Below are positions 28,446-56,958 of a DNA stretch of 64,000 bases, piece after piece. The stretch's first letter is position 1; each line of letters starts with the position of its first letter. This DNA is from Acidibrevibacterium fodinaquatile (GTDB lineage Bacteria > Pseudomonadota > Alphaproteobacteria > Acetobacterales > Acetobacteraceae). The translations under genes were made by a program, and so were the position numbers. Below the pieces are notes generated by a model. It had not been told where the DNA came from. It saw only the letters and a program-made list of their open reading frames with translations, and made no database searches. Where the stretch lies: contig NZ_CP029176.1 of the NCBI RefSeq assembly GCF_003352165.1, forward strand, positions 372,001 through 436,000. The letters are read 5' to 3'.

Positions 28446-29606
28446 ATGGATGACCAGAGCCGACCATTGCGGGCCGAGCAAGGCCCGCTTGCCGCCTATC
28501 GTGCCCGCCTCGCCGAGGGCGTTCTCGCAACCGACCCCGCCCAGGCGCTTCTGGCGGAGCGGCTGCAGGACCTATGGGCGCGGCTTCGCGATTATGACCC
28601 GCAGCCACAGCCGGCGAGCAACGGGCTGCTCGCGCGTTTCCTCCGCCGCAAGCCGGCCGAGGGCGCGCCCGAGGAACGGCCGCACGGGCTTTATATCGTC
28701 GGCGAGGTCGGGCGCGGCAAATCGATGCTGATGGACATGTTTTTCGCGAGCGCCCCCCTCCAGCGCAAGCGCCGCCTGCATTTCCACCGTTTCATGCAGG
28801 ATGCGCATGCCAGCGTGCATCGCTGGAAGCAGCGCCACCCCGAGGGCGCCGACCCGATCCCGCCGCTCGCCGACGACATCGCCGCCGGCGCGGCACTCCT
28901 CTGTTTTGACGAGTTCCAGGTCAATGACATCGCGGATGCGATGATTCTCGGCCGCTTGTTCGAGGCGCTGTTTGCGCGCGGCGTCGTCGTTGTCGCGACC
29001 TCGAACACCTTGCCCGACGATCTATTTCGCGGCCAGCCCGGGCGCGACGCCTTTCTCCCCTTCATCGAACTGATCAAAAGCCATCTCGACGTGCTGGTGA
29101 TGGAGGGGGGGCGGGATTGGCGGCGGCGGCGGCTCGAGAGCATGGCCGCCTGGCTGGTTCCGGCGGATGCGCGGGCGGAGGCGGCGCTCGATGAGATTTT
29201 CGCGACCCTCGCCGAAGGGGTGGCGCCGGCGCCGGCTCGCCTTCACGTGATGGGGCGGCGTTTCCTGGTGCCGCTCGCCGCGGGGCATGTCGCGCGCTTC
29301 GATTTCGCCACATTGTGCGGCACAGCCCTCGGCGCCGGCGATTATCTCGCGCTCGCGACCCATTACCAGGCGCTGGTGCTCGATGCCGTGCCGCGTCTGT
29401 CGCCCGATAATTTCGGCGAGGCGCGGCGCTTCATCACCTTGATCGATGCGCTCTACGACCATCGCGTCAAACTCTTCGCCTCCGCCGCCGCGCCGCCGGA
29501 CGGACTCTATCGCGATGGCGAGGGCGCGCGCGCCTTCGAGCGCACCGCCTCACGGCTGATCGAAATGCAAAGCCGCGCCTATCTCGCGCTCAGCCATCTC
29601 ACGTGA
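28446..29606 (+). CDS. zapE: AFG1/ZapE-family ATPase
   Basis: 386 residues from ATG 28446; ATG 28431 is an equal candidate, and neither has a good ribosome site. Walker A is 'GEVGRGKSMLMDMFF', Walker B 'ALLCFDEFQVNDIADAM', and the sensor region 'VVVVATSNTLPDDLF'. ZapE is an AAA-like protein that acts at the Z-ring late in division; the mitochondrial counterpart Afg1 aids respiratory complex turnover. Its 3' end overlaps the last gene of the phage block by eight bases on the opposite strand. Confidence 0.93.
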   Translation: MDDQSRPLRAEQGPLAAYRARLAEGVLATDPAQALLAERLQDLWARLRDYDPQPQPASNGLLARFLRRKPAEGAPEERPHGLYIVGEVGRGKSMLMDMFFASAPLQRKRRLHFHRFMQDAHASVHRWKQRHPEGADPIPPLADDIAAGAALLCFDEFQVNDIADAMILGRLFEALFARGVVVVATSNTLPDDLFRGQPGRDAFLPFIELIKSHLDVLVMEGGRDWRRRRLESMAAWLVPADARAEAALDEIFATLAEGVAPAPARLHVMGRRFLVPLAAGHVARFDFATLCGTALGAGDYLALATHYQALVLDAVPRLSPDNFGEARRFITLIDALYDHRVKLFASAAAPPDGLYRDGEGARAFERTASRLIEMQSRAYLALSHLT

Positions 29607-30369
29607 CGGAAAGCGAGAGCGCGAGCACGCGCATCGCCGCCTCGAGCCGCGCCCAATCGACGCCCGCGGGGTCGGCCCCCGTGGCGCGGAGCCAATCGGG
29701 CGAGAGCAGCGCATAGGCTTCCTCGGCGTAGGTTGCCCACCATTCCCAGGTCATTTGCTTGAGCGCGCCCCAGGTCACGCAGATCGGCCCGATTTCGTTG
29801 TAGCCGACGAGCGGCACGCAGTGCCCACCCCACGAGCCCGGCGCATCGGAGATGGACGCCCAGACGTCTTCGTTCTGCGCCGAAAGCGGCAGCGCGACGC
29901 CGGCGTAGAGATTGCCGAAGGTCGCGACCGCCCGCCGCACGGCGTCGAGATCACGCGGGTCGACCGAAGCCGCGCCGGTGAGCGTGTCCGGGCCACCGTC
30001 GGGGGTTGGCATCCCGGTCGTCGCCCAATAGCGGAGCACATCGCCACAGAGCGCGCCGCGATCGGTCGCGGGATCGCCGGGCACGTAGCCAGAGACCGCG
30101 CTGTAAGCGGCGAGCACTTGCGCGTCGTCCATCACCACCGGGTGCGCGTCGGTGTAAGACGTCCATTGCTGAATGACGTGGCCGACGGCCGCGCAGGCGC
30201 AATCGCCAACCTCATCATTCGCCAGCATCGGCCACGCATTGATGCGCGAAAACCAATCGGCGGACGCCGGGCTTGCGAGGGGTGCCGCGAGATAGTCGCG
30301 GAGCGGCGCAAGACGCGGATCTTGCGGCGCGCGCACGCGGCCGAGTTTCATGTTCGAATGGTCGGTCAT
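29599..30369 (-). CDS. papain-like cysteine peptidase-type protein, last gene of phage block
   Basis: 256 residues from ATG 30369 with GGAGAAAG upstream. A Cys-rich 'DCACAAVGHVIQQWT' at the start of a helix and 'WGGHCVPLVGYNE' later provide the Cys-His arrangement of papain or C39-like peptidases. There is no signal peptide. It is the last gene of the minus-strand phage operon, overlapping the 65-residue gene by four bases. It could be a virion-associated or delivered protein, or an extra (moron) gene. Peptidase activity is inferred from motifs only. Confidence 0.6.
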   Translation of the reverse strand: MTDHSNMKLGRVRAPQDPRLAPLRDYLAAPLASPASADWFSRINAWPMLANDEVGDCACAAVGHVIQQWTSYTDAHPVVMDDAQVLAAYSAVSGYVPGDPATDRGALCGDVLRYWATTGMPTPDGGPDTLTGAASVDPRDLDAVRRAVATFGNLYAGVALPLSAQNEDVWASISDAPGSWGGHCVPLVGYNEIGPICVTWGALKQMTWEWWATYAEEAYALLSPDWLRATGADPAGVDWARLEAAMRVLALSLSVT

Positions 30370-30563
30370 AGGGCTTTCTCCTCGCGCCCGCAGCGCCAGC
30401 TTTGCAGGCGGTAGCTCGGATGATCGCGCAGCCAGCGCTCGGCTTCGGTCTGCCCGGCAAGCAAACAAGCGATCGGGGTTGGGAACGGCGCGGCGAGCGT
30501 GCGCGTCTCGCACGCGGGCGCGCTCATCAGGCAGACGATGAAAGAAAGCGTGATGGGGTCCAT
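30366..30563 (-). CDS. small phage-block protein with hydrophobic N-terminus
   Basis: 65 residues. Its N-terminus 'MDPITLSFIVCLMSAPACE' is a weak signal or membrane segment, followed by 'CLLAGQTEAERWLRDHPSYR' and 'LQSWRCG'. Three to four cysteines might form disulfides. The stop overlaps the next ATG (ATGA) and its start lies inside the end of the lipase gene, a tight packing typical of real phage genes. Function unknown; an export to the periplasm is possible. Confidence 0.6.
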   Translation of the reverse strand: MDPITLSFIVCLMSAPACETRTLAAPFPTPIACLLAGQTEAERWLRDHPSYRLQSWRCGREEKAL

Positions 30564-31162
30564 AATTGGGTGTCCTCGAAGGGCGCGAGCGCGCGCTCAT
30601 AAGCGCCGATGTGATGATCGGCGAGCGGATCGTCCGCCGGGGTGCCGATCTCGATTTGGCGGCGCGGGTGGAGATAGACGCCTGGCAGCCACGGCACATC
30701 CGGCACCGGATCGTCGCCGTTGCGATAGCTGCGGACGGCAATCGGTGAGAGGAGGCGCCGCAGTTTCCACGAGCCGCAACGCGGCGCGCCGAAGGTGACG
30801 ACGGCAGCCGGCGGCGTCCGTCGTGCTACCAGAATGCCGGCGAGCAGGAGCGCGAGCGCGCCGCCGAGCGAATGGCCGACGACGATCGCGCCGCTGAAAT
30901 TGACGGACGCCATCGGCGCGCGCCGGTAAAGCGCCCAGGCGCCGGCGCAAAAGCCGGCGTGGCAGATCCCAAGCGTTCCATCCCACGTCGGCCACGCCGC
31001 AAAATCGCGCAGCCACTCGCCGATTTCGCGCTTGGTGCCGGGGATCGCGAAGATCGGACGCTCGTCGACGAGGGTGTAAAGCGCCGAGAGTTCGCCGGCG
31101 AACCAGGTTGCACGCGTATAGCTCTGCGCGACGAGGCGGCAGAGATCGAGATCAGACGGCAT
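30527..31162 (-). CDS. class 3 lipase-like alpha/beta hydrolase
   Basis: 211 residues from ATG 31162. The nucleophile elbow is 'VVGHSLGGALALLLAG' (G-H-S-L-G-G, the class 3 lipase form). 'VVTFGAPRCGSWKL' follows as in that family, and Asp ('YRNGDDPVPDVPW') and His ('DHHIGAYERAL') complete a triad. There is no signal peptide. It sits directly behind the endolysin gene in the lysis region, so an enzyme that attacks membrane or surface lipids is conceivable. It overlaps genes on both sides. Confidence 0.78.
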   Translation of the reverse strand: MPSDLDLCRLVAQSYTRATWFAGELSALYTLVDERPIFAIPGTKREIGEWLRDFAAWPTWDGTLGICHAGFCAGAWALYRRAPMASVNFSGAIVVGHSLGGALALLLAGILVARRTPPAAVVTFGAPRCGSWKLRRLLSPIAVRSYRNGDDPVPDVPWLPGVYLHPRRQIEIGTPADDPLADHHIGAYERALAPFEDTQLWTPSRFLSSSA

Positions 31163-31685
31163 CGAGCAGCCCTCCCGCCGCAAGCGCGATGCGGCAAATC
31201 CGAAGACGCCAGCCCGCGAGAAAGCGCGGGTCGTCGGGAAGCGCCGCGAGGCGCGCGGCCTGAAACCTCGCGCAGAGCCCGAGCAAATCTTTGCGGCGTG
31301 CTTCGAGAGCGGCGAGCGTCACGGGGCCAATCACGCCATCGGTCGCCACGCCGAGAGCCGCTTGCAGCCAGCGCGACGCTTCCGCGACCCCGTCATTGAC
31401 CGCAGCATCGAAGACCAGCATCGCGAGCGCCGGCGGCAGCTTGTCGCCCGCGATCGGCGCCCAGTAATCGCGGGCATAAATCGCCTTCGCGTCCTCGAGC
31501 GTGAGGGACGCGATATCGAGCCCGGGATAAGCCGCTGCACTGATCCCGAATTTCGTCCCACGACAGGCACCGCGCCCGACGCTGCCGCCGGTCCAGTTGC
31601 CGGGATCGTCGGGGTCGGCGGAAAAGCCGCCTTCCTCGCCGATCGTCTCAGCGAAGCAGCGCGCGAAAACCTCAGTGGCCAGCAC
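31152..31685 (-). CDS. endolysin, glycoside hydrolase 108 type
   Basis: 177 residues from GTG 31685. The catalytic region reads 'AETIGEEGGFSADPDDPGNW' with Glu in E-E-G-G and then 'GTKFGISAAAYPGLD', the mark of GH108 N-acetylmuramidases. A C-terminal peptidoglycan-binding part begins near 'LGVATDGVIGPVTLAAL'. There is no signal peptide, so it needs a holin. It should degrade the cell wall for particle release. It overlaps the lipoprotein gene upstream by 14 bases. Confidence 0.9.
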   Translation of the reverse strand: MLATEVFARCFAETIGEEGGFSADPDDPGNWTGGSVGRGACRGTKFGISAAAYPGLDIASLTLEDAKAIYARDYWAPIAGDKLPPALAMLVFDAAVNDGVAEASRWLQAALGVATDGVIGPVTLAALEARRKDLLGLCARFQAARLAALPDDPRFLAGWRLRICRIALAAGGLLDAV

Positions 31686-32420: not shown

Positions 32421-32431
32421 GGAAACTCCTC

Positions 32432-33177: not shown

Positions 33178-33189
33178 CGTGGAAACTTC

Positions 33190-36100
33190 CTATTGCAGGC
33201 GCGCCCAAAGCGCGCTGGTCGCGAAGAAAATGAAGCGGGCGGCGCTGTTTGCCGAAAGCGCCGTCGGCGCACCGGAAATCGTCTGCCCGGTATTGGCGTT
33301 GAGGGTGAGCGCGGTGATGGCGGGGATGGTCGCGATGGTCACTTCCTGGCCATCGATCGGTGCCGCCGGCAGGGTGACGCTCAGAGCAGCCAGCGTCGCG
33401 CTGCCGGCGATCTGCAACAGCGAACAATTATTTGGAACGACGAGCGCGGCACCGCTCGCCGGCGTTTGATAGCTGTAGGATTGTTCGGCGCGCGCCCCGA
33501 GCAGCGCGACCGGAGAGCCGCCGGCGCCGACGGAGCCGAGCGCAACCGCGCCGTCGCCGGCGCCGGCGAGTGTCACGCCGTTGGCGGCAAGCGCGCCGGC
33601 GCTGCTGATCGCCGCCGGCGCGCTCGCGCTGCCGGGTGTGAGGTTCAGATAATTCGCGAAGTTGGCGATCGGCGTGAGACGGGCGGCATCGGCGCCATTG
33701 GCGGAAAAATGCAGAACGCCATTCCCCTGTGTTGCAAGCGCGAGATCGACAGCAGCGTCTGCGCCCGCGCTCGCAAGGCCCGGCGGCGCGCCGTTTCCGG
33801 CGCCAAACAGCCGAAGCCCGTTGACCGCGCCCGCGACAACGCTATTGAGCGCCGGCGCATAGGCGTAATTCGGCTTGTCCCAGCCATTGCCGACATCATG
33901 GACGTTGGCGGACGCCGTCGTCGTGAGCGCCGCGACACTCAGCGTCTCGGTCGCGCCAGAGGAGGCGCTTGCGCTGACGCTGATGCCTGCTTGCGCTGGT
34001 GCGTAGAGCACGAGCGTCTCGGAATTGGGATGAGCGGTGACGAAAACCCCTGCGGCGGGCGCATAATTTCCCGAAAGCACGGCAAGCGGGCTTGCGAACG
34101 TCACTGCGCCGTTGAAGGCGATCTCGGCAGTGATGGCGGCACTGAGTGTCACCGTATTGCCGGCGATCGCAGTGATCCGCGCACCGGCCGGGATGGCCGC
34201 GTTGCCGTAGGCCACCATGCCAACCGCGAGCGCGCTTGCATCATAGAGCGTAAGCGTGCTCGCCCCCGCGAGTGCGGTCTGCAGGGTCGTCGCCGGCGCG
34301 ATCACGCTCGCCGCCTGAACCGCGTTCGCAAGCCCAAGCGCCGCGCTCGCGAGAGTATCGCCGCTGACGAGCGTGTAGCTCACCGCAACCGGGCCGCCGA
34401 TCAACGCGCTGCCCGATACCGTGAGCGTCAACACATCACCGGCTGTTGGCGCCCCGCCGATGGTGACGGCGTCGGCGGCAAGCAATCCGCTCGCGATCGC
34501 GCTCGCACCCTTGGTGTTGACCGAGCTGTTGCCCGCGAGCGTCAAAAGCCCGCCATTGGTTTCGATATCGATCGGCACAGCGCAGCCGGAAAAACAATTC
34601 CCGACAATGGTCGCTGCGAGAATGTTGCTGATCTGGACGCCGACACCGCCATCTTGCGGCAGAACATCATTGCCGATGAGAGAGAGACGCGCGTTCGGCG
34701 CATCGATGCGAAGAGCAGGTTGCGGCGAAATCACGCCGTTATGGGCATAGCGCGTGAGCTTGCTGTCGGTGATGCGAATCTCGTAGACATAATCGCCTTT
34801 GATGTCGAAAATCATGCCCTCGCAAAAACCGACCTCCATGTTGGCAACGGTCAGCATGAGATCGGCGCCGGAGGCCGATTCGTAAACATTCGGCGCGGGA
34901 TTTTCGATCAGAAACAGCGGCAGTGGCGCCGAGGTGTCGCCTGTGATATAGCCATAGACGCTGAAATTCTCGAAATGCGTGGTTTGCAGGACGCCATGAT
35001 TGACGACTTGCAAAACCGAGCCGATCGAGTCGAAATTCGTCTCGGTAAAATTTCCCGCAAGCGTGCCGCCATCGACGAGGATCGCGGTGCGATAGCCGAA
35101 CACGAAATTACCGACCGCAATCGGCCCGCCATTGGTCGTCGAGGAGGGCGCGGTGGCGCTACCATTGCCGGAAACGAGCAGCCAGACGCTCCGCGTTGTC
35201 GCGTAATTGCGGAGATAGTAGTTATTCTGAATGGCTTCGAACGTGGCACCACCGGCGAGCGCCGCCAGCGTCGGCACGGTGATGGTAACGGTATTGCCCG
35301 AGATGCTGGCGATGGTGGCATTATAGGGAATAGCGCCATTGCCGCTGAGCGGCATGCCGGGCACGAGATTGGCGACGCTGTTGACCGGGAGCGCCGTGCT
35401 GCCGGCGGCAACACCGGCGGCGAGCGTCAGCGTGACCGCAACCGTTGCCGCGGCACCGCCGCCATAATGCAGCATCTCGTCCTGGAACACGCCCCAAGAA
35501 AAGAAATTGTCCGACATGAAGATGATGTCGGCGACGTTGGGAAGATTGAAACAAACATTGAGGGCGCAAATGCGGTTGCGCGTAAACATCACATCGCCGA
35601 CCGTGGTCGACGCCGGAACCGCGAAGAAATCATAGGCGTTGGTGACCTGATTGTCGGTGAACACCACGTCAGCAACAGCGGAAATCCCGGTCATGCCAAG
35701 AAATAGCGGCGGATAGACGATCGGGCCGCTCGGCTGGTCGACCTGGTTCGGGTAGTAAAAACAAAGGCGCTCGATCAGCACCGAGGCGCCGATCAGAAAC
35801 GGCGATTGCGCCGTCGCGGTGATCCAGATCTGGCTGCCGTTTTTGCCATAGGGATAGCCGAAATCGGTGCCGCCATCGCCGATCAGGGCAACGTTCTGGA
35901 GCGTGATTTGAGCGGCGCCAGCAAGCAAAATCGGGCCACCGGCCGGGATATAAAGCGCTTTGTTGGCAGCGCTTGCGGCGGCGACGGCGGCGGCGAACGC
36001 CACCGAATCATCGGTTGTGCCGTTCCGCGCAAGGCCAAAATCATTGACATTGATGCGATCGGCAAAGCGCGCGGCAAGCGAACGTGCCGTCGTGGTCGCG

Positions 36101-36555
36101 TTTGCGATCGCCGTCGCGCTGGAGAGATCGGTCGCGCTGACGCTGCCGCCGCTGATCGCGACGGCAGACGCGCTTTGTGTCGCGAGACTCCCAAGCCCGA
36201 GATTGCCGCGCGCCAGCGTCGGATTGGCGAGATCGGAGAGATTGTTTGTGCTCTGCAACGCACCGGTCAAGCGCGGATCGTTGCCGGCGGCAACTGTTCC
36301 CGCCGTCGTGCCGATATTTGCCGAAAGCGTCGCATTGGCGAAAGTAAGACCATTGCCGATCGCGATCGTCTCCGGGCTCCCGGCCCCGAGGCTCGCGCGC
36401 CCGAGCAGCGAGCCGGTCGGCACGCTGAGCGCGGGCTCGGTGCCGGCGAGCAAGGTGGCAACCGTGACCGAGCTGGTCACGCCATTTTGCTGCAAGGGCA
36501 ACTCGTCATCGGAATTGACCGAGGTGACGGTGGGCAGTTGCGGAATGGTGGGCAT
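33190..36555 (-). CDS. tail fibre/spike protein with pectate-lyase-like beta helix (1)
   Basis: 1121 residues from ATG 36555. The first 80 or so residues ('IPQLPTVTSVNSDDELPLQQ', 'NGVTSSVTVATLLAG') match the start of the next upstream gene product and should attach to the baseplate. Near 150-200 lies 'FADRINVNDFGLARNGTTDD', the pectate-lyase-superfamily entry motif for a right-handed beta helix. Repeats with Gly/Asn turns and Ig-like stretches ('AAGSTALPVNSVANLVPGMP') follow. It probably binds or cuts surface polysaccharide. No catalytic residues can be assigned. Confidence 0.75.
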   Translation of the reverse strand: MPTIPQLPTVTSVNSDDELPLQQNGVTSSVTVATLLAGTEPALSVPTGSLLGRASLGAGSPETIAIGNGLTFANATLSANIGTTAGTVAAGNDPRLTGALQSTNNLSDLANPTLARGNLGLGSLATQSASAVAISGGSVSATDLSSATAIANATTTARSLAARFADRINVNDFGLARNGTTDDSVAFAAAVAAASAANKALYIPAGGPILLAGAAQITLQNVALIGDGGTDFGYPYGKNGSQIWITATAQSPFLIGASVLIERLCFYYPNQVDQPSGPIVYPPLFLGMTGISAVADVVFTDNQVTNAYDFFAVPASTTVGDVMFTRNRICALNVCFNLPNVADIIFMSDNFFSWGVFQDEMLHYGGGAAATVAVTLTLAAGVAAGSTALPVNSVANLVPGMPLSGNGAIPYNATIASISGNTVTITVPTLAALAGGATFEAIQNNYYLRNYATTRSVWLLVSGNGSATAPSSTTNGGPIAVGNFVFGYRTAILVDGGTLAGNFTETNFDSIGSVLQVVNHGVLQTTHFENFSVYGYITGDTSAPLPLFLIENPAPNVYESASGADLMLTVANMEVGFCEGMIFDIKGDYVYEIRITDSKLTRYAHNGVISPQPALRIDAPNARLSLIGNDVLPQDGGVGVQISNILAATIVGNCFSGCAVPIDIETNGGLLTLAGNSSVNTKGASAIASGLLAADAVTIGGAPTAGDVLTLTVSGSALIGGPVAVSYTLVSGDTLASAALGLANAVQAASVIAPATTLQTALAGASTLTLYDASALAVGMVAYGNAAIPAGARITAIAGNTVTLSAAITAEIAFNGAVTFASPLAVLSGNYAPAAGVFVTAHPNSETLVLYAPAQAGISVSASASSGATETLSVAALTTTASANVHDVGNGWDKPNYAYAPALNSVVAGAVNGLRLFGAGNGAPPGLASAGADAAVDLALATQGNGVLHFSANGADAARLTPIANFANYLNLTPGSASAPAAISSAGALAANGVTLAGAGDGAVALGSVGAGGSPVALLGARAEQSYSYQTPASGAALVVPNNCSLLQIAGSATLAALSVTLPAAPIDGQEVTIATIPAITALTLNANTGQTISGAPTALSANSAARFIFFATSALWARLQ

Positions 36556-36583
36556 GGTAAGCCTTTCGTGACGGGTCGCGAAA

Positions 36584-48109: not shown

Positions 48110-49690
48110 TTAAGCGATCTGCCCGGACGGCAGGGTCTGGTTCTGGATGGTGACGGTCTGGCCGCCATCGACATTGACGATGAATTTCTCGTTGATCGCC
48201 ATGTATTGCACCTGCACATCGGCCTGGACGTAGCCGAGCGCGGTGCGTGAGGCTGGGTTATTGGAGGTATCGCACACCACCTGAAACGGGGCCGCGCCGC
48301 TGCTGGTCGCGCCCAGCATGCCTTGACCCAGCATCGCTTGCAGGAAGGAAAGCAAGGTCGCGCGGATTTGCGAAAACAGCGCGGCGTTGATCGGCTGGCC
48401 GACGAATTGCCCCATGCCGGCTTCCAGGGTCGCGGCGATGTAGTTGGTAAGCCGCGTGTAATTATCGCCATCATTGGCCGGGTTGGTCGAGGTGTTGAAG
48501 CCGCCGCGCACCCCCCAGAAGCTTCCCGCCGGCTGCGGATTGGCGATGACGTCGATGCCAGCCGTGAACAAGGCATCGAGATCGGCGGTGGAATAGGTGT
48601 TGGCGAGCGGCGCCCCCGGCGCGCCCGAGCGCTGGCTGCCGACCACGCCATAGAGCGGCTTGTTGAGGCTCGATTGCTCGGGCGAAAGATTGGCGAGCCT
48701 TCCTGCAACAAAGCCCTGCGGCGAGACCAGACGGATGAGATTATTGGTCTGGTCATTCCACCAGATCCAATCGCCGAACATCAGCTTTGCGGCGTAGCTA
48801 TCAAGGCCAACGCTCTGGATGGTCGCGACCGCATCGGTGATGGTATCGCCCTGCGGCCCGGTCAGGATCATGTAGATCCCCTCCGAGAGGCCGAACGCCG
48901 CCTGCGTCGTCCATTGCGTCTGATCGACGCTATCGGCAAGAACGGCGATCGAGCAACCTTGGCCGCCGAGCGCATACATTCCGGTGCGTGGCGTCGTGCT
49001 GTGGCCGATCAAGGTCGTCGAGGTGACGTTGCTTGCGCCATCGCTGCCGGGTGTGCCGTAGCTGAAAGCAAACGCCTCGCTGGTTGGGGTCACGGTCAGG
49101 GTATTGCCGAGCGAGGCGACGACGAGCTGCGAGGGGCCGCGCAACGACCCCTGGCCGAGATTGATGGCATTGACAAGGTTTTGCCAAAAAGTCGCGCCGG
49201 TGCCGCCGATATTGTTGAAGACTTCCGGCGTGAATCCGGGCAGGCTGAAGGTGATTTGCCAGGTGCCGGCTTGGCTTCCCGGCATGATGCTCCCGGTGAT
49301 CTGATTGCCGAAGCTCCCGGTATAAAGCGCGGTCAGGACCAGCGGGCCGTTGGTGCCGGTATAGAAAAGTCCGAGCTGGGCCGCGGTATCGGTGCCGTCG
49401 GTTACGCGCACGCAGCGGAAATTCTGTGCGCCTTGCTGAATCGCGGTTGCGACCTGCGTTCCCATATCATATTGGCGTGGCTGCAATTGGCCGAAGGTTG
49501 CGACATAGTCGGCCATCGTGCCGACGATCGCCGGCTGATTGACCGGGCCCCAGGTCGCGGTGCCGACGACGCCGATAATGTCGGTCGGCACGCCATTGAG
49601 AACCAGGTTCTGCGGCGGCACGATCTGAACATAGAGATCAGGCACCACCAACGCGGTGGTGTTGAGGCTGCCTTGCGTTACGATCGGCAT
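48110..49690 (-). CDS. contractile tail sheath protein
   Basis: 526 residues. Sheath features: N-terminal arm 'VPDLYVQIVPPQNLVLNGVP', 'TDIIGVVGTATWGPVNQPAI', 'FGQLQPRQYDMGTQVATAIQ' and the conserved C-terminal 'FWGVRGGFNTSTNPANDGDN' with 'YTRLTNYIAATLEAGMGQFV'. It proves a contractile (myovirus-type) tail. Confidence 0.94.
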   Translation of the reverse strand: MPIVTQGSLNTTALVVPDLYVQIVPPQNLVLNGVPTDIIGVVGTATWGPVNQPAIVGTMADYVATFGQLQPRQYDMGTQVATAIQQGAQNFRCVRVTDGTDTAAQLGLFYTGTNGPLVLTALYTGSFGNQITGSIMPGSQAGTWQITFSLPGFTPEVFNNIGGTGATFWQNLVNAINLGQGSLRGPSQLVVASLGNTLTVTPTSEAFAFSYGTPGSDGASNVTSTTLIGHSTTPRTGMYALGGQGCSIAVLADSVDQTQWTTQAAFGLSEGIYMILTGPQGDTITDAVATIQSVGLDSYAAKLMFGDWIWWNDQTNNLIRLVSPQGFVAGRLANLSPEQSSLNKPLYGVVGSQRSGAPGAPLANTYSTADLDALFTAGIDVIANPQPAGSFWGVRGGFNTSTNPANDGDNYTRLTNYIAATLEAGMGQFVGQPINAALFSQIRATLLSFLQAMLGQGMLGATSSGAAPFQVVCDTSNNPASRTALGYVQADVQVQYMAINEKFIVNVDGGQTVTIQNQTLPSGQIA

Positions 49691-49878: not shown

Positions 49879-50706
49879 TCAGTCAGTCAGGGATACCGAG
49901 GCGTTGCCCACGGTGCCGATCGTCGTCGTGCCGAACAGCATCGAAGCCAAGCTCGCCGTCTGCAAGGTCGGGTATTCGACCGAGTAGAGCAGGTCGCGGC
50001 GATAAAGCGACGCGTTTTCCTGACGGTCGAGGGTGATGCTTTGCCGAAAACGCAGGCGCCCGACGCTGCCATCGGGAAACGGAAGAAAATAGGTCGCAGC
50101 GAGCGCGCTATCGACGGCGATCATCGCCGCATCGCGCAAGGCGGGATCGGCGCACCAGGCGATGAGGCGGAAAATCTGCTCCTGGCGGCGAACCTGGTTG
50201 AAAATCCCTTGGGTTGCGACGGTGCGCGCGATCAGGCGCTGCACACCGGGGATGGTTATCGTCGCGTTCGACAATTGCACCAAGCGATTGGCCATGATCT
50301 GGCTTGCAAGGTTGGCCGCGACATTGGCCGGTGCATCGCCGCTCTGGCAGGGATAGACGTAGGTGTTAGCGTCGGCGAGAATGCCGGCGATTTGGCCCGG
50401 GCCGGCGCTGCCGGCGAAGGTTGCGCTGTCTGCGGTCGTCGTCACCGTCAAGGTCGGCGCGACCGGCGCCGGGTTGCTCCATTTCGGCAGATAGCGGGTG
50501 GTGTTGCGCTCGCCACTATCCTCGGGAAAGACCGTGAGATTGACATAGCCGGCGGCAAGGTCGGCATCGAGCGCGTTGCTTTCCGGCCAGCCGCGATAAA
50601 GCCGCACCGGCGCGCCGCAGACGCTCGGCCCGCTCAACCCTTGCGGGTAGAGGGCGGCCATCGCGGCATTGACGAGGGCGGCTTCGACATCGGATTGATC
50701 GGCCAT
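49879..50706 (-). CDS. phage structural protein (tail completion region)
   Basis: 275 residues from ATG 50706. Sequence includes 'ALVNAAMAALYPQGLSGPSV', 'CGAPVRLYRGWPESNALDAD' and 'VYPCQSGDAPANVAANLASQ'. It recalls proteins at the head-tail or tail terminator position of alphaproteobacterial prophages. Its place between the connector genes and the sheath supports a tail terminator. The ATG overlaps the upstream stop by one base. Confidence 0.6.
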   Translation of the reverse strand: MADQSDVEAALVNAAMAALYPQGLSGPSVCGAPVRLYRGWPESNALDADLAAGYVNLTVFPEDSGERNTTRYLPKWSNPAPVAPTLTVTTTADSATFAGSAGPGQIAGILADANTYVYPCQSGDAPANVAANLASQIMANRLVQLSNATITIPGVQRLIARTVATQGIFNQVRRQEQIFRLIAWCADPALRDAAMIAVDSALAATYFLPFPDGSVGRLRFRQSITLDRQENASLYRRDLLYSVEYPTLQTASLASMLFGTTTIGTVGNASVSLTD

Positions 50707-51362
50707 CAGCTTGCCACCTGCCGGACCACGAGACGCCAACCAAGCTCAGAAAGTTCGGCGCTGCTGACAACGAAATTACGGCCGAGATCGTCCTCGACCA
50801 AATCCTCGACGCGCGGGACGATGCCGGGCAAGCTCGGCAGCAGAAGCGTGAAGGCGGTCAGACGCACATCGGCAGGAAGATCGCCGGCGTAACGCGCGCC
50901 GCCGCCATTGCCGCCTTCCATCATGCTCGCCGGCCAATTGCCAAGGAGCAGGGTCGCGGCTGCGATCTCAACGCCGCCATAGGCCTGCACCCCAAAGCCG
51001 GTCGGGCCGCCCGGGCGGAGGACGGAGACGATGCGCTCGGCAAGAACCGTTACCACCGGGAGCAGCGGCGGCTGGCTCGCGATAAAGAACGTCCGCCCGG
51101 TGTCATGCTCGATGAGATAATCGCCGGGCAGCGTATAGGCGGAATCGAACACGCCATACCAGACCGGATGGCCGTAAGTATTGGCGCGGACAAAGCGCGG
51201 ATCGGTCGCGTTGAACGCCGCGCGCAGTTGCAGATAGCGGTTCGTTGCAGCACACGGATTGGTATTGCCCGCGGGGCGAAAGGCGTTATAGAGCTGCCCG
51301 GTTTTCAACGCGGCGCGTCCCATGCCACGATAAATCAAATCCTGCAAACGATCGGGGTTCAT
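50706..51362 (-). CDS. phage structural protein (head-tail region)
   Basis: 218 residues from ATG 51362 (a TTG at 51374 is an alternative). Contains 'RGMGRAALKTGQLYNAFRPA', 'NTYGHPVWYGVFDSAYTLPG' and 'DYLIEHDTGRTFFIASQPPL'. The phrase about reading a value from tool-like beta strands points to a connector or stopper protein, but I cannot name the family. It lies 4 bases after the preceding connector gene. Confidence 0.55.
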   Translation of the reverse strand: MNPDRLQDLIYRGMGRAALKTGQLYNAFRPAGNTNPCAATNRYLQLRAAFNATDPRFVRANTYGHPVWYGVFDSAYTLPGDYLIEHDTGRTFFIASQPPLLPVVTVLAERIVSVLRPGGPTGFGVQAYGGVEIAAATLLLGNWPASMMEGGNGGGARYAGDLPADVRLTAFTLLLPSLPGIVPRVEDLVEDDLGRNFVVSSAELSELGWRLVVRQVAS

Positions 51363-51366
51363 GGGA

Positions 51367-51768
51367 TCAGACAATCAGCGCGATGCCGCCGTAAGAAAGT
51401 GCGGGGCCAGGGGGAAGCCCGAGAAAGCCGCAAAGACGCCGCCGCCAATCATCGAACAATTCCTCGCGCTGATGGACTTCTTCGCTATTATGCGTCCACA
51501 CCGCGGCACTCGCGGTATCGAGATTGCCGCCAGCGGCAGGAATCGCCACCTCGAGCGGATAAAGCTGCGCGAGATAAACCGAGCGCACAACCGCATATTC
51601 CGCCGGCGCGAGATTGTTCATGCGGTATTCCAGTGTGCCGTAGGCTTGGAAAAACCGCCAGCTTTGAAAGCCCGCAGCCCCGGCGCCATAGGCCGGATAG
51701 CCGCAAAAACGCCGGATATCGGTTTTTTCGGCGTCCGTGAACGGCAGCGTCAAGGGGCTTGCGGACAT
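51367..51768 (-). CDS. head-tail connector-like protein
   Basis: 133 residues. Helical sequence 'PFTDAEKTDIRRFCGYPAYG' and 'YRMNNLAPAEYAVVRSVYLA' looks like the first connector after the capsid gene (gp6-like). The C-terminus is 'LGLPPGPALSYGGIALIV'. It follows the decoration-like gene by 2 bases. Role inferred from position. Confidence 0.6.
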   Translation of the reverse strand: MSASPLTLPFTDAEKTDIRRFCGYPAYGAGAAGFQSWRFFQAYGTLEYRMNNLAPAEYAVVRSVYLAQLYPLEVAIPAAGGNLDTASAAVWTHNSEEVHQREELFDDWRRRLCGFLGLPPGPALSYGGIALIV

Positions 51769-51770
51769 GA

Positions 51771-52079
51771 TCAGTAAACCGTTCCCTGGCCACGCGAGAA
51801 ATAGAGATTGCCGCTTCCCGAGGCCAACACCGCGGCGACGGTTTTAGCAAACTCGCCCGCATGGATCAGCATCCGGCTGCCCGGCGGGATCGGCACATCG
51901 GCGCTGGTCGCGGTCACACTGTTATCCATCCCAAAGCGGATGAAAGCGAGCGCGGCGCTCGCGTTATAGACCAAAACCGCCTCGCCCGAACCGGCCAGCG
52001 CGATCGCGGTGGAGGTGGTGCCGGCGGCGAGCGTTGCCGTCGCCGACACCATCAGCGGTTGCGTCGATCCAATCGCCAT
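51771..52079 (-). CDS. small capsid-associated protein (decoration-like)
   Basis: 102 residues from ATG 52079, 5 bases after the capsid stop. Beta-rich with 'GSGEAVLVYNASAALAFIRF', 'GMDNSVTATSADVPIPPGSR' and 'MLIHAGEFAKTVAAVLASGS'. Position and fold pattern fit a decoration or head-completion protein. A longer upstream frame exists but would lie inside the capsid gene. Confidence 0.65.
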   Translation of the reverse strand: MAIGSTQPLMVSATATLAAGTTSTAIALAGSGEAVLVYNASAALAFIRFGMDNSVTATSADVPIPPGSRMLIHAGEFAKTVAAVLASGSGNLYFSRGQGTVY

Positions 52080-52084
52080 CGTCG

Positions 52085-53407
52085 TCAGCCCACATGCTCG
52101 ATCATGACCGCGCGCTTGAACGCGGCGTTGGTCGCGGTCGGGATGGTGGTCGGGTTGGTGGTGACGTCGGTCGGGGCGCAGAAGCCGCCGATCCAATACC
52201 AGGATTGCGCGATGATCTGCTGCAGGCGATCGATCGGCTCGCGGGTCACCATGGCGACGCCGTCGATGATGCTGATGATCGCATCGCGCGGCGCGACATC
52301 CTCTTCCGCCATGCCGGCATAATCGCCTTCAATCAGCGCGCCCTGGCCGCAAACGATCGGGCGGCGGATATAAAGCCCGGGCAGGCCCGGCGCCGGCTGG
52401 ACATAGGCTTCCGTGGTCGGAACGAAGCGAAGACCAAGGAAGGGGCTTACGAGTTCGCCGCGGCGGAAGGTCTCGGTGTCATAGCCCATGGTGAAGAGCT
52501 GCTTGAAATCGGGATCGGCGAAGAGCTGGCGCGCCGAGACCGGATCGAGATGGCAGTGATAGACGCCGCCGAGATCGGGGACGTTATTGAGGCGGAGCTT
52601 CGCGACGGCATCAAGGAGATTCGCCATCGTCAGCGTGTTGGTCGCCTGCAATTGCGAGGTGTTGGTGGCGCCGCCCGGGCGGATGATGACGGACGCATTC
52701 GCCGCCTGCACGGTGCTGCCGGACGCGCCATCGCCGATCGAAACATTGCTCGAGAAGGTCAGCTCGCCCGACAAGCCGCCCGGCGTGGTCGACGTGCTCG
52801 TCGCATCGACGGCAACGCCGATCAGGGTATAGACATCGGCGCCGACGGTGACGGTGAGGGTATTGCTCGCGCTTACCGCGGTCGGCACGCCATTCACCCA
52901 GACATACTGAAAGCCACGCACATCATCGACGGCGATCGTCGCGGCCGGCGCGCTGAGGCCGGTGGTGACGCGGGTATTGCCGCCGAAATAGGCGGAAAAA
53001 AGCTGATTGCGGGCCAGCTCGTCGAGCGAGCGCCGCGCCTGCTCGCCATTGATCGAGGCGTTGAGCATGAATTGGGAGGCGATGCCGACGCGGCTCGTCA
53101 CCATGTTGAGGTCGGTGGTGGCGCCGTAGAGATTGATCGAGAGGGTGTATTGCTCGATGTTGAAATACTGCGGCGTGAGCCCGTTATCGAGATTGGTGTT
53201 GGTCGCCGGCGCAAGCGGTGTGGTGACCGAGGGCTTGAGGCCGGCGCGGGTCTTGGTCAGGGTTTCGCCGATCCCGACGGCGAAGACCTCACGATCGGCG
53301 ATGTCGCGATAGCCGAGCTTGGAATGGAGTGCCGATTCGAATTCGCGCTCGAGATAGCCCTGCTGGATGATGGGCTGCAACGCCGCGGGGAAATTATTGA
53401 TACCCAT
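52085..53407 (-). CDS. major capsid protein (HK97-like fold)
   Basis: 440 residues: 'LQPIIQQGYLEREFESALHS' N-arm, 'YDTETFRRGELVSPFLGLRF' and 'YIRRPIVCGQGALIEGDYAG', with a central inserted domain of Thr/Ser-rich beta strands (about 150-270). This is the size and layout of HK97-type capsid proteins. No head protease gene is present and the N-terminus is short, so the protein probably assembles without a cleaved delta domain. The putative scaffold gene lies 97 bases upstream. Confidence 0.82.
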   Translation of the reverse strand: MGINNFPAALQPIIQQGYLEREFESALHSKLGYRDIADREVFAVGIGETLTKTRAGLKPSVTTPLAPATNTNLDNGLTPQYFNIEQYTLSINLYGATTDLNMVTSRVGIASQFMLNASINGEQARRSLDELARNQLFSAYFGGNTRVTTGLSAPAATIAVDDVRGFQYVWVNGVPTAVSASNTLTVTVGADVYTLIGVAVDATSTSTTPGGLSGELTFSSNVSIGDGASGSTVQAANASVIIRPGGATNTSQLQATNTLTMANLLDAVAKLRLNNVPDLGGVYHCHLDPVSARQLFADPDFKQLFTMGYDTETFRRGELVSPFLGLRFVPTTEAYVQPAPGLPGLYIRRPIVCGQGALIEGDYAGMAEEDVAPRDAIISIIDGVAMVTREPIDRLQQIIAQSWYWIGGFCAPTDVTTNPTTIPTATNAAFKRAVMIEHVG

Positions 53408-53504: not shown

Positions 53505-53909
53505 TTATCGGCGCCGCAGCATCTCGGCGCGGGCGGCGCGATATTCGGCAGCGGTCATTTCGCTCGCGTGCTTTTGGCGCGGCGGCTCGGCGTGCGGCGG
53601 GGTTGCCCGCGACGACGACGAATGAGCAGCGAAGAGCCAGGGCTTTTCGCGTTTGAGTTTCGTCATCAGCGCGCCCGCGCCCTCGACCTCGCCTTTGTCA
53701 TCGAGTTTGACGGCAGTAGGCTCGATGAGTTTCAAGCCGTCGAGGTCGATCATCCCCGCCTTGATCGCTTCGGCCTTGAGTTCGGCGCGGATGATGCGCG
53801 CGCGCGCGGCCTCGGTCACTTCCTGCAATTGCCGCGTCAAGGCGGCGGTTTCGGCGCGCAACTCCTCGAGTGTTGGTTCCGGCAAAGACGGGTCGCTGGC
53901 TTCGGTCAT
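53505..53909 (-). CDS. putative scaffolding protein
   Basis: 134 residues, mostly helical and charged ('TLEELRAETAALTRQLQEVT', 'EAARARIIRAELKAEAIKAG') with a Pro/Ser-rich tail and a basic end ('MTAAEYRAARAEMLRRR'). The motif 'GMIDLDGLKLI' is common in capsid-assembly scaffolds that stand between portal and capsid genes. The start overlaps the portal stop by four bases. Good match in position; function inferred. Confidence 0.7.
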   Translation of the reverse strand: MTEASDPSLPEPTLEELRAETAALTRQLQEVTEAARARIIRAELKAEAIKAGMIDLDGLKLIEPTAVKLDDKGEVEGAGALMTKLKREKPWLFAAHSSSSRATPPHAEPPRQKHASEMTAAEYRAARAEMLRRR

Positions 53910-55315
53910 GCTTCTCCTTCCGCGACCGCGATGGTCGCGATCTCGTTGCCGATATTGGCGATGTCATAGGTGCTGGCGACGGATTTCAGTGCGCTTTCGC
54001 GCGACAAAAGTCCGGCTTCGGTCAGCGTGGTGAGCGCTTGCGCATCTTTCAGCCGGTCATCGGCCGATGCCGGATACCAGCGCGGCCAGGTGAGGCTGAG
54101 GCTGGCCTCGGGGTCAAGCGGTGGCAGTTCCGCGCCGCGGACGATGAGCGGATAATGCTGGCTTGCCCGCAGCACCATCCGCGCGAGCGCGAGCAACGCC
54201 CCTTCGCCATAGGAAATCCTGAGATTATCGGCGAGCCAAATCAGTCCCTGGTTCATCATTTCCAAAGCGCGGCCGGAGGTGGGGGCGGCGAAGCGCTGCG
54301 CATCGGCACGGTTGCCATGAATGCTTTCGAGGGCGAGTTCGCGGAGCGTGCGCACATAATCGATCACCGCAGCAGACGCGGTGCCGCCGATTTCGAGCAG
54401 CCTTGCGTCGCCCTTTTCGGAAACCACCAGAGCATTAGCAGCACCTTTGATGATCTGATTGTCAGAGGTCGCCGGCTCCTTGATCAGCAGCGTCGGATCG
54501 GAGCTATATTTGAGGCCGCGCCCGGCTTGCGAAAGCTGGTAATCGATCTCGATCGCGGTCTCGACAGCGGCGCGAAAGGTGCTGGCGCCGTCGCGCATAT
54601 CGCCGGTCGCTGAGGGGCCGGGAAGGTTCTTGACCCATACAATGGGAACGAAGCCGAGCCCGTGGCGGACACTGCGCGCGTGATCGATGCGCGGCGTCTC
54701 GTCGCTTGCGATCGGCCACGGCGCGAACCACCACTCCCATTCCGCGTCCCAGCGCCGCTGAAACCAGTATTGCCCAGTCGGATCAGGGACTTCATAGCCT
54801 TGATCGAGGAGATTGCCGCCCGAGACCTTGAATTTCTCGGTGACGGAGGCAAGCGTATCGGGAGCCTCGGCCTCCCAGCGCGGCGTGAGATACATCGTCT
54901 CCAGTGTTTGAAAAAACACCCGTCCCCGCAAAACGCGCATCAGTATGGCGACCGAGCCGACCGAGCCGCGCAAGCAAGCATCGATCATCACCTCGTTGAG
55001 TTTGGCCTCGCGGAGAATGGCGCCGAGCGCATCGCGTACTGCCGGGTCCGGCGAGTCGAGCGCTGGAAAATGGCCTTCGCTGAAGACCAGGGCGACTGAA
55101 TCCTCAACCACCAGTCGGCAAAGATTATACCGCACCGAGGGTCGGCGCTGGCGGAGCGGGATATACTCGCCGCCGGGGCTTCGTTCGTCATAAAACTCAT
55201 AGGGTAAGACGTCATAGAGCGTGCCATCGAGAACCCGGCGCAGGATGTCGAGCTTGCGTGTCCGCGCCGGATAGTCGGGGTCCATGGGGATCAGGCTTGC
55301 GAGTGTGTCGAACAT
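53906..55315 (-). CDS. portal protein
   Basis: 469 residues from ATG 55315; an upstream extension of 66 residues lies within the terminase frame and is not used. 'KLDILRRVLDGTLYDVLPYE', 'VRYNLCRLVVEDSVALVFSE', 'LREAKLNEVMIDACLRGSVG' and 'AVETAIEIDYQLSQAGRGLK' show the portal layout of crown, wing and stem helices. It should form the dodecameric DNA gate. It starts 4 bases after the terminase stop. Confidence 0.83.
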   Translation of the reverse strand: MFDTLASLIPMDPDYPARTRKLDILRRVLDGTLYDVLPYEFYDERSPGGEYIPLRQRRPSVRYNLCRLVVEDSVALVFSEGHFPALDSPDPAVRDALGAILREAKLNEVMIDACLRGSVGSVAILMRVLRGRVFFQTLETMYLTPRWEAEAPDTLASVTEKFKVSGGNLLDQGYEVPDPTGQYWFQRRWDAEWEWWFAPWPIASDETPRIDHARSVRHGLGFVPIVWVKNLPGPSATGDMRDGASTFRAAVETAIEIDYQLSQAGRGLKYSSDPTLLIKEPATSDNQIIKGAANALVVSEKGDARLLEIGGTASAAVIDYVRTLRELALESIHGNRADAQRFAAPTSGRALEMMNQGLIWLADNLRISYGEGALLALARMVLRASQHYPLIVRGAELPPLDPEASLSLTWPRWYPASADDRLKDAQALTTLTEAGLLSRESALKSVASTYDIANIGNEIATIAVAEGEA

Positions 55316-55319
55316 GCCT

Positions 55320-56744
55320 CTACCGCGAAAGAAGCGGCAGATTGACCTGCCGTGTCGCTTGGGGGGCGGCGCTGAGATGGGCGAAGGCGCGCGACAGCGC
55401 ATCCACCTGATCATCCTTGCTGCCGGCGGGAAAGTCGCGCAGTTCCTCGAGGAGCGCGCGCGTGAACGGGGCTTTGACGATGGCGAGATTGCCGCACGCG
55501 GCTTGGCTTGCAACCGGGCTCGCGCGTGTCACCTTGGCGCCGCTTTCGGGTCCGGAGACGATGTGATAGCCGGCGAGTTTACGTGTCAGATAAAGAACCT
55601 GGGCGCGCCCGGCCTGGCCGGGATCCTGCGGCAGCAGAATGGTGGTCTCGCGCCCGTCGCGCTCGGCGCAGGCAAGGATCGCCTGCTCGACCTCGTGCGG
55701 GCCGCCGCGGAGACGCACAATGTCATCAACGATGAAGCGCCCGGCCTCGTCTTTCAGAAGCCGCAACCCGACCGTCCAATCCGGATCGAAGCCCGGGCGG
55801 GCGATGCTGGCGGCGAGATCCCAGGCGCGCACCCGCGCAAGCGGGCGCGGCGCTGCGTCCAAGAGCGTGATCGCATCTGTGCGAAACAACAATCCCTCCG
55901 GCGGGCGTGGCCGCTGTTGATAGAGAGCGGCCCAAGCGCGCTCGCCGATGATCCGGCGTTTGCGGGCTAATGCCTCATGAGTTTCCCATTCCGGCCAGAG
56001 CGGCGCGCCGGCTTCGCGGCCGAGCGGATCATCGGTTTCGGCGAGGGCTGGCAAGCGCAAGACCCGCCAGCGATCGCCGCCGGCGGCTTGCTCGGCGAGA
56101 AGGCGCCCACCGAGATCATCCTCATGCCAACGCGTCATGATCAGCACGACGCGGCCGCCGGGTTTCAGGCGCGAGATCAGATCGCTCTGATACCATTGCC
56201 AAAGATGCGCGCGCGCGGCAGCCGAATCGGCTTCCGCTTGCGATTTGACGGGATCGTCGATGAGCACGAGGTCGGCGCGTCGGCCGGTGATCGGCCCGCG
56301 CACGCCGACCGCGTAATAAGTGCCGCCGGCGCGCGTCGTCCAGTTGGCCGCGGCGCGGGCATCGGGCGCGAGCGCGATCCCGAGGCGGCGATGATGCTCG
56401 GCGACGAGATTGCGCGCCCGCCTTCCGAAATGGCTCGCGAGCGAGGCGGTATGGCACGCCGCGATGACGTTGGAGTGCGGTGCCTGGGTGAACCACCAGG
56501 CGGGAAAGATCACGCTGGCGTAAGTGGATTTTGCCGAGCCCGGCGGCAGCAGCAGCATCAACCGATCGTTTTCGCCGCGCGCTAAGGCCTCGAGTTCAGC
56601 GATGATCAGCCGATGATGCGCCGCCGGGCGATGGCGTTCGGGCGCTAGCGCCAGCATCGCCCAGGCCTGCAAAGAGGTCCGCACCGAACGGCGCAGCGCC
56701 GCTTCCGTGAGCAAGGGCTGCGATTTCGCGTTCGAGATCGGCAT
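55320..56744 (-). CDS. terminase large subunit
   Basis: 474 residues from ATG 56744; ATG 56660 is an alternative. ATPase: 'LMLLLPPGSAKSTYASVIFP' (Walker A variant P-P-G-S-A-K-S-T) and 'RADLVLIDDPVKSQAEADSA' (Walker B). The RNase H-like nuclease starts at 'VRAWDLAASIARPGFDPDWT' and ends with 'DFPAGSKDDQVDALSRAFAH' (last acidic pair). All needed motifs are present, so DNA packaging could work. The 5' end overlaps the small-subunit gene by 149 (or 65) bases. Confidence 0.92.
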   Translation of the reverse strand: MPISNAKSQPLLTEAALRRSVRTSLQAWAMLALAPERHRPAAHHRLIIAELEALARGENDRLMLLLPPGSAKSTYASVIFPAWWFTQAPHSNVIAACHTASLASHFGRRARNLVAEHHRRLGIALAPDARAAANWTTRAGGTYYAVGVRGPITGRRADLVLIDDPVKSQAEADSAAARAHLWQWYQSDLISRLKPGGRVVLIMTRWHEDDLGGRLLAEQAAGGDRWRVLRLPALAETDDPLGREAGAPLWPEWETHEALARKRRIIGERAWAALYQQRPRPPEGLLFRTDAITLLDAAPRPLARVRAWDLAASIARPGFDPDWTVGLRLLKDEAGRFIVDDIVRLRGGPHEVEQAILACAERDGRETTILLPQDPGQAGRAQVLYLTRKLAGYHIVSGPESGAKVTRASPVASQAACGNLAIVKAPFTRALLEELRDFPAGSKDDQVDALSRAFAHLSAAPQATRQVNLPLLSR

Positions 56745-56958
56745 CGTCGAGGGCAGGGGCGGCGTCCTTCGCGCGCGCCCCGCGGCGCTCGGCGGGAACC
56801 GGGGCGCGGCGGGGGTGAAGATAGGGGGCGGCGGCGCGGGCGAGTTCGGCGGCGCCGTCGGCGTCACCCTCCTGCCATTTCGCGCGCATCACCGCGAGCA
56901 GGATGTCGAGCGGGGAGAGGCCGTCGCTCGGCGGGACGTCTGGGGTGGGGGCGGGCAT
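56596..56958 (-). CDS. putative terminase small subunit
   Basis: 120 residues. 'LSPLDILLAVMRAKWQEGDA' and 'DGAAELARAAAPYLHPRRAP' match a sentence seen in small terminase subunits of alphaproteobacterial phages. The C-terminal half overlaps the terminase large gene in another frame. It is the first gene of the phage block. No helix-turn-helix is evident, so DNA recognition is uncertain. Confidence 0.65.
   Translation of the reverse strand: MPAPTPDVPPSDGLSPLDILLAVMRAKWQEGDADGAAELARAAAPYLHPRRAPVPAERRGARAKDAAPALDDADLEREIAALAHGSGAAPFGADLFAGLGDAGASARTPSPGGASSADHR

Follow-up and report, generated by a model that had tools for sequence, protein, structure and literature searches.

Described systems and the locus under study

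Several phage-derived particles are known with which we may compare the locus described here. It is a block of about 31 densely packed minus-strand open reading frames (ORFs) in the 4.04-Mb genome of Acidibrevibacterium fodinaquatile (G000), with genes for packaging, capsid, contractile tail, fibres and lysis. The window, which is the whole stretch of 64 kb that we have analysed, corresponds to C1:372001-436000. Coordinates given without a contig or locus refer to it; the block is found at 29599-56958. Many acid-loving Acetobacteraceae carry such a block, and we regard it as a strong candidate for a gene-transfer agent (GTA) of a new type.

RcGTA (Rhodobacter capsulatus) and CcGTA (Caulobacter crescentus) are domesticated head-tail clusters with regulators which act in trans. 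The tail of RcGTA is non-contractile. In C. crescentus the GTA is reported to be repressed by RogA and driven by GafY and GafZ; the latter is an antiterminator with a predicted sigma-like helix-turn-helix (HTH) (PMC11150451). GafA of R. capsulatus is also reported to carry sigma-like domains (PMC9638019). RogA and the sigma-like GafZ find a parallel in the XRE cassette which we discuss below. The descent is different, however: judged by its genes the block is not RcGTA-like, because it has a sheath gene and because GTA_TIM is absent from G000 and found in only one of 27 block carriers. GTA_TIM-type genes and a non-contractile tail, which characterize the Rhodogtaviriformidae, are not features of the block. 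RcGTA-like clusters were reported in 0 of 62 Acetobacterales genomes (Kogay 2019, PMC6821227). For two of the GTA groups classified in PMC9662315, those of Bartonella and Brachyspira, any tail that was observed is described as non-contractile. The block has a contractile tail, a putative independent origin and a pattern which follows host descent. A small terminase (TerS) without N-terminal HTH has been proposed as a trait of the GTA type (PMC6854486). The TerS of the block seems to be without the N-terminal region which bears the HTH in phage TerS, as read by eye in 10 genomes, with no phage relative for comparison.

PBSX of Bacillus, which belongs to a different phylum, is a GTA-like element. 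It has a contractile tail and an Xre repressor. In G000 there are contractile particle genes, a small XRE protein and operator-like sites, through which this protein may act as a repressor. PBSX packs fragments of host DNA: a length of 13.4 kb is reported for these chromosomal fragments, and the particle acts as a tailocin (PMC12946183).

The temperate phages phiKX1 (Komagataeibacter, LC644975) and phiKX2 (LC644976) have 53-54 kb. They were recovered from mitomycin-treated strains, and phiKX1 was predicted to be incomplete by PHAST (PMC8566455). Between phiKX1 and the block the portal, baseplate and hub genes are homologous, as are those for capsid (53%) and sheath (51%), and their order is the same; the sheath of phiKX2 is 51% identical to that of the block. 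However phiKX1 has an integrase, an XRE regulator, an antirepressor and other early genes, whereas the block has neither integrase nor early genes. The large terminase (TerL) of the block has no match in 50 kb of phiKX1. On present evidence the block is not an active phage of this kind. In Acetobacter phage phiAO1 (LC644971) the TerL is 48% identical, there is no annotated integrase and a short TerS-like protein is present, but its capsid and sheath have no detectable relation to those of the block and host-type genes are interspersed. Its 34 kb (L057 1-34100), obtained from induced particles, carry genes for catalase, superoxide dismutase, peroxiredoxin and sorbosone dehydrogenase among the phage genes; phiAO1 may itself be a host-borne particle locus.

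Phage regions without integrase which align to Acetobacteraceae genomes have been reported as Sphagnum 'DNA Virus Contigs 1-4' and called temperate phage or degraded prophage (PMC12142844). By their description they are probably pieces of the same element. In the part of that paper which deals with these contigs we have come across neither a comparison of gene order nor a tree, and no study of selection or control. In titles and abstract openings, a search with most subscription papers and bioRxiv preprints outside its reach, we found no description of the element as a GTA or domesticated particle.

Conservation and descent of the block

The block is almost certainly a domesticated phage region which is inherited vertically, because its gene order is conserved, its tree follows that of the host, dN/dS (the ratio of nonsynonymous to synonymous substitution rates) is low, its locus is fixed within genera and no tyrosine integrase is detectable. 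Its genes, as called by Pfam, PHROGs and NCBIfam family scans, are listed below. Tube, tape measure and small terminase were assigned by position or resemblance. PADLOC gave no match on seven scanned genes.

29599-56958 (C1:401599-428958), minus: whole structural block, from family scans and the collinearity of 17 core genes
56596-56958, minus: small terminase (TerS) candidate, 120 aa; overlaps TerL; no N-terminal HTH region seen by eye
55320-56867, minus: large terminase (TerL), phrog_38, with Walker A/B and nuclease motifs; the start is probably near 56680
53906-55513, minus: portal, phrog_145; true start after about residue 66
53505-53909, minus: head scaffold, phrog_4866 (family scan)
52085-53407, minus: major capsid protein, 440 aa, phrog_1357; weak N4-gp56 resemblance, under the cut-off of the model
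51771-52196, minus: small protein of the head, perhaps of the decoration type (a guess); true start at about residue 37; cluster 21
51367-51768, minus: conserved head-tail connector candidate, function by position; cluster 9
50706-51374, minus: conserved protein phrog_14605 (PHROGs match)
49879-50739, minus: conserved protein phrog_13532 (PHROGs match)
48110-49690, minus: tail sheath, phrog_23 (PHROGs match)
47669-48097, minus: tail tube candidate, phrog_12993, from position and conservation; dN/dS 0.05
45846-46823, minus: tape-measure candidate, by position; fast evolving
43661-44887, minus: tail protein phrog_52, hub by position
43101-43652, minus: baseplate spike, OB domain (family scan)
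42703-43077, minus: baseplate wedge subunit (family scan)
41582-42703, minus: baseplate J (family scan)
40924-41580, minus: baseplate protein phrog_26379 (PHROGs match)
39649-40884, minus: fibre protein with glycine-rich C-terminus (family scan)
39139-39627, minus: fibre-tail adaptor, Gp77-like (family scan)
36584-39136, minus: beta-helix fibre 1 (family scan)
33190-36597, minus: beta-helix fibre 2 (family scan)
31152-31685, minus: GH108 endolysin (family scan)
30527-31183, minus: class 3 lipase (family scan); fast evolving
29599-30372, minus: last gene, phrog_19005 (PHROGs match), peptidase-like by eye

TerL is found once in the G000 genome and has matches in 40 of 100 related genomes: in all six members of the genus (74-100% identity, own genome included), in 27 of 54 other members of the family and, weakly (27-39%), in 7 of 40 genomes outside it. 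A capsid match is present in 168 of 394 family genomes, with identities split by a gap. At 66% identity or more we find 92 genomes in 30 of 91 genera, nearly always with all 440 residues aligned; this class was set after the gap was seen, both numbers were counted by hand from the rows listed, and partial or intermediate copies (G162, G255, G303, G361) are excluded. Carriers include Acidocella facilis and A. aromatica, Acidiphilium rubrum and A. iwatense, Acidisoma silvae and A. cellulosilyticum, Acidisphaera sp. L21, a metagenome-assembled genome (MAG) of Rhodopila, and Acidicaldus organivorans, whose capsid is 86% identical. In two other genera the sheath was looked for as well: 18 of 25 genomes have it in the one and 18 of 24 in the other.

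A second group of capsids, mostly with 53-59% identity, is phiKX1-like and belongs mainly to other genera. In two of them it is found at a shared locus (L138-L140 in G030, L143-L145 in G261), with dehydrogenase genes and then argF downstream; no tyrosine recombinase was detected in 60 kb. In Acidiphilium, argF-argD lie about 7 kb downstream of the block, on the same side as in that locus. The phiKX1-like group may be domesticated too.

Gene order was compared in 39 carriers, own genome included, which were picked among the matches for contig size and diversity and not at random. The core consists of 17 genes and runs from TerL to the fibre adaptor; in each of the 28 genomes whose contig contains it in full, G000 included, gene order and orientation are the same, over a span of 15.7-19.6 kb. 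The other 11 are broken by contig ends and their visible part agrees with the same order. G177 has extra sequence and G169 a four-gene insertion (L115 4566-7528), which lies between portal and scaffold and includes a relative of the last gene of the block. Endolysin genes are found downstream of the fibres in several genera. In the six Acidiphilium examined the flanking genes are constant, with the block between groESL-usg and ppk-hda-purM; three Rhodopila-like genomes have their own common flanks.

A tree of 12 block genes was compared with an rpoB tree in 27 of 30 genomes (G123 has no match, G108 and G412 have fragments only); block genes are incomplete in the rows of G025 and G176, and so is rpoB in that of G176. 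The two trees have 15 of 24 splits in common, as against a mean of 0.19 and a maximum of 3 in 1000 label shuffles. The Mantel correlation is r = 0.77, with a permutation maximum of 0.21.

Selection was estimated from pairwise dN/dS with our own Nei-Gojobori script; it is purifying for most particle genes. Between G000 and G002 most particle genes have values of 0.05-0.17, the two big fibres, each 84-88% identical between these genomes, 0.13-0.14, and the genes of the lysis region up to 0.20. As host yardsticks, two neighbouring genes give 0.12 and 0.16, RlpA 0.33 and rpoB 0.03. Higher values are found for gene 47322-47735 (0.31), the tape-measure candidate (0.36), the lipase (0.53) and, as discussed below, TerS. 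The motifs of TerL are kept in all 37 complete copies, and one further copy ends at a contig edge.

Phage-derived genes which evolve with the host genome, as is the case here, are a mark of GTAs (viriforms). So is the absence of integration and replication genes of their own, which we also find by family scans and a tyrosine-recombinase profile (serine recombinases lie outside this model).

A probable control cassette and operator-like sites

The original prediction had counted missing control genes among the signs of a GTA. This argument was wrong, while domestication itself is strongly supported. A cassette with an XRE regulator, a GcrA-like HTH protein and a DUF6362 protein is found at C1:651589-654139, 223 kb from the block. 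Judged from the sequences, control genes have been kept, though no longer linked to the block, and shared operator-like sites tie both together. Two features lie upstream of TerS:

57009-57023, no strand: operator-like palindrome, GTTAG-N5-CTAAC, which precedes the start of TerS by 50 bp; sole exact copy in the 4.04-Mb genome
57028-57057, minus: putative promoter TTGCCC-N18-TATAAG, similar in five genus members; the palindrome begins 4 bp past the -10 box

A repressor bound at the palindrome would block the start of transcription, since it begins so close to the -10 box. Control of the block by the XRE protein is very likely.

In G002, G004 and G005 the cassette is 13-15 kb from the block. In 13 carriers of 8 other genera the XRE gene lies within about 4.5 kb of TerL, and in most of them two more genes, a small one for a GcrA-like HTH protein in divergent orientation and one for DUF6362, lead toward the terminase. 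In Acidocella facilis ATCC 35904 and A. aromatica DSM 27026 the cassette adjoins the terminase. The cassette is inverted in G015 and G176, and the GcrA-like gene is absent in three Acidisoma. For the non-adjacent cases, the DUF6362 locus of 17 genomes was scanned with profiles from the adjacent cassettes: DUF6362 and the GcrA-like gene were found in all 17 and XRE in 11; the six loci without an XRE match are those of Acidiphilium. DUF6362 is present in all 27 carriers tested, in 26 of them above the family cut-off. Over the family it is found in 86 of the 92 capsid carriers and in 63 of 302 other genomes (Fisher's test, with kinship ignored). Some genomes without sheath in genera g133 and g108 retain the DUF6362 gene (for example G321, G346, G398, G405 and G434). 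Between G000 and G002 the three cassette genes have dN/dS near 0.2.

Paired GTTAG/CTAAC sites, in either order and with 4-9 bases between the arms, occur 20 times in 1.54 Mb of carrier sequence. All 20 are at the element. The cassette accounts for 15, and the other five stand immediately ahead of TerS, in five genus members out of six. When the 1.54 Mb were Markov-shuffled, 0-3 paired sites were obtained (8 trials). A paired site stands at the cassette in 14 of the 24 stretches with an XRE gene. A count over the whole genomes of 31 carriers gave 22 places with the exact palindrome; they are spread over 15 carriers, each of which has one at the element. G000, G001, G002, G003 and G005 have a single exact site, at the TerS promoter, while ten other carriers have it at the cassette. 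In a second draw of loci, partly from the same genomes, 25 of 25 exact sites are at the cassette or upstream of TerS. The cassette of G000 has no exact copy; it has CTAAC-N7-GTTAG, and also GTTAG-N5-ATAAC, one letter off, over the GcrA promoter. Exact sites away from the element are found at G200:C2:335446, G200:C6:232381, G234:C1:2654018 and G123:C23:256971, and three in G121; they may be due to chance or be additional targets of XRE.

The XRE protein has about 119 aa, and HTH domains alone are recognised in it. The AlphaFold2 model of DUF6362 (mean pLDDT 83) has a C-terminal half which is sigma-region-4-like (VIA Z 7.4). At full length it weakly matches the Q antiterminator of phage 21 (6p18, Z 7.0, 98 residues), and it also matches AlpA (7xya, Z 6.0); the Q21 and AlpA matches are a lead only. 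Neither the DUF6362 proteins nor TerS (81 residues) have a match in 50,697 phage records. No paper on DUF6362 was found.

Flanks and integration functions

Several claims of the original prediction, which had been made from the letters of the window, concern the block and its borders. The gene contents were as predicted, with about 31 ORFs instead of about 35, and the packaging motifs of TerL are intact. Family scans found neither an integrase nor a replication gene in the block. The longest exact direct repeat between the flanks has 16 bp and is not flush with the block, so that no attachment (att) repeat was found, again as predicted; Markov-shuffled flanks give repeats of 12-17 bp (20 trials). 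At one end zapE (28407-29606, plus) does overlap the last gene by 8 bases; this junction is not conserved, since zapE does not adjoin the block in G002 and G004. The other end faces, as had been read, the promoter of a gene (57113-58396, PF13458) which is divergent and encodes a periplasmic binding protein. That no head protease is visible, as had been noted, says little, because none is annotated among 87 of the 92 features of the related phiKX1.

The nearest integrase is a tyrosine integrase gene at 3036-4409. We have rejected it as the integrase of the block: it lies 25 kb beyond it and has no counterpart in the stretches of the relatives, which within the genus extend up to about 15 kb past the block. 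A profile for tyrosine recombinases, derived from eight integrases, had no match in the stretches of the relatives; its only matches were two of its own members, the gene at 3036-4409 and the phiKX1 integrase. The same profile found none in 160 second-draw loci, of which named genomes and IMG/VR supplied 80 each; some of these genomes had already been compared. A Pfam integrase search in 24 carriers gave, in the other genomes, none nearer than about 45 kb among the matches listed. The G000 genome has 30 integrase-family matches, with two clusters duplicated near C1:3.04 and 3.11 Mb.

In IMG/VR there are at least 474 related stretches; among the best 80 the longest contig has 33.6 kb, about the size of the block. 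The MAG AlinenLipids_bin-2488 has three copies, which we considered as a sign of mobility and rejected: two are identical over 21.3 kb and inverted, most likely an assembly artefact, and the third is a different copy.

Beyond the binding-protein gene there are two further genes of the locus:

59097-59618, plus: RlpA-like DPBB gene, found as the terminase's divergent neighbour in 16 genomes, which belong to 10 genera; a locus marker outside the particle
59621-60061, plus: lipoprotein gene beside the RlpA-like gene

A minus-strand ORF at 59375-59971 was considered as a conserved upstream phage gene and discarded, as it is the shadow of these two genes on the opposite strand. Beside them there is a low-GC patch (60083-60984), in which 51 bases (60246-60296) match locus L001, chosen for an integrase, at 94%; the patch may be the remnant of a mobile element.

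Nature of the particle

The reading that we prefer, and consider quite likely, is that of a captured contractile phage, inherited with the host, which gives a particle controlled in trans, either GTA-like or PBSX-like. Host DNA is probably packed in the particle; for the delivery of DNA the chances appear even. A contractile phage would have been captured early in Acetobacteraceae and then inherited as a chromosomal structural operon. The XRE protein would repress its own divergent promoter and that of the block through the palindrome sites. In the genus of the window the cassette would have split from the block, and the operator at TerS would have kept both coupled. After release, the DUF6362 protein, with its sigma-region-4-like C-terminal half, would act in trans as a late activator or antiterminator and drive the long late operon, as in the case of GafA and GafZ; the whole cassette might be an independent parallel to the GTA regulators. 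The terminase would fill the heads with host DNA and lysis would release the particles, which would either deliver DNA to kin, as a GTA, or kill competitors, as PBSX does. A more complete version is tentative, with chances somewhat below even: a functional contractile GTA, not of RcGTA descent, present across much of the acid-adapted Acetobacteraceae, with a three-gene switch, which several lineages have unlinked, and a dedicated palindrome; it would carry random host DNA into kin.

A number of observations weigh against this reading. The particle, the packaged DNA and its transfer are deduced from the genes. Carriers are 92 of the 394 family genomes sampled; in two genera the sheath is absent from 7 of 25 and from 6 of 24 genomes, either because it was lost or because of gaps in the assemblies, and the chromosomal position of the block varies between genera. 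Seven strongly supported splits are in conflict, five in the block tree only and two in the rpoB tree only. TerS has a dN/dS of 0.76, with few sites and reading frames which overlap with TerL, and the pair G131-G177 is less constrained (0.11-0.53). There are in-frame TAG codons in the capsid gene of the MAG G005, at about codon 337 of 440 (L039 13940-15259), and in the G200 homologue of gene 45069-45815 (L094 15537-16250). Most of the remaining genes there are open. As regards control, a repressor with its operator is also typical of a normal prophage. Ten of the 24 XRE-bearing stretches have no paired site at the cassette, and the palindrome in its exact form is missing in 16 of the 31 carriers, G004 and the six Acidiphilium being among them. 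A reversed control pattern is commoner than the palindrome (124 places against 22 in the 31 genomes), so that it is the position of the sites, and not their number, which is unusual. DUF6362 is present in 63 genomes without this capsid and has no match in 6 of the 92 carriers; its matches to sigma region 4 and Q21 are middling (VIA Z about 7), with none by Foldseek at E <= 0.001.

The alternative which survives best, rather unlikely in our judgement, is that the particle works like PBSX: host DNA is packed and not delivered, the contractile tail kills related strains, and selection is maintained by this killing. The contractile tail, the two large beta-helix fibres, the lysis genes conserved in the genus and the small XRE protein would all agree with it, as does the double role reported for PBSX. 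However an arms race would favour fast change, and the fibres are conserved in the genus, as their identity and dN/dS between G000 and G002 indicate; no immunity gene was recognised, and no dedicated search for one was made.

An ordinary temperate or satellite phage which strictly follows its host, with integration functions elsewhere or unrecognised, is quite improbable. A phage-like regulator and an operator do exist, and the related phiKX1, with its integrase, came from mitomycin-treated cells, though predicted incomplete. The original prediction had named an integrase or repressor and att sites tied to the block from elsewhere, or a sporadic distribution, as evidence for such a phage. A putative repressor tied to the block was indeed found, while neither tyrosine recombinase nor att was; the loci are fixed within genera, the distribution follows host descent, and the longest contig among the best 80 IMG/VR stretches is about the size of the block. 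The comparison across the family, with synteny in 28 of 28 genomes, low dN/dS and no tyrosine integrase, favours domestication.

That we are dealing with a tailocin or contractile injection system, with the head genes as passengers, is very improbable: the contractile tail is full and there is a lysis cassette, but head and packaging genes, which tailocins have lost, are kept, and selection constrains terminase, portal, scaffold and capsid to the same degree as the tail, with intact TerL motifs. A decaying remnant kept by chance, to which the absences within genera and the single stops in G005 and G200 might point, is very improbable too, since reading frames are kept over many genera, dN/dS is low in most particle genes and even the unlinked control genes are constrained.

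Significance

What appears to be new is a contractile, independently derived GTA- or PBSX-like element whose switch became unlinked. If this is true, evolution would have arrived once more, now starting from a contractile phage, at the combination of a structural cluster and a switch in trans. Many sequences of these genomes and of IMG/VR which are labelled 'prophage' or viral would then be host genes. Close relatives of the block are found in named cultured strains of Acidocella, Acidiphilium, Acidisoma and Rhodopila. The cassette and the operator offer a direct handle, as the removal of a single gene should switch production on. If the particle does deliver DNA to kin, gene exchange in acidic habitats would depend in part on it.

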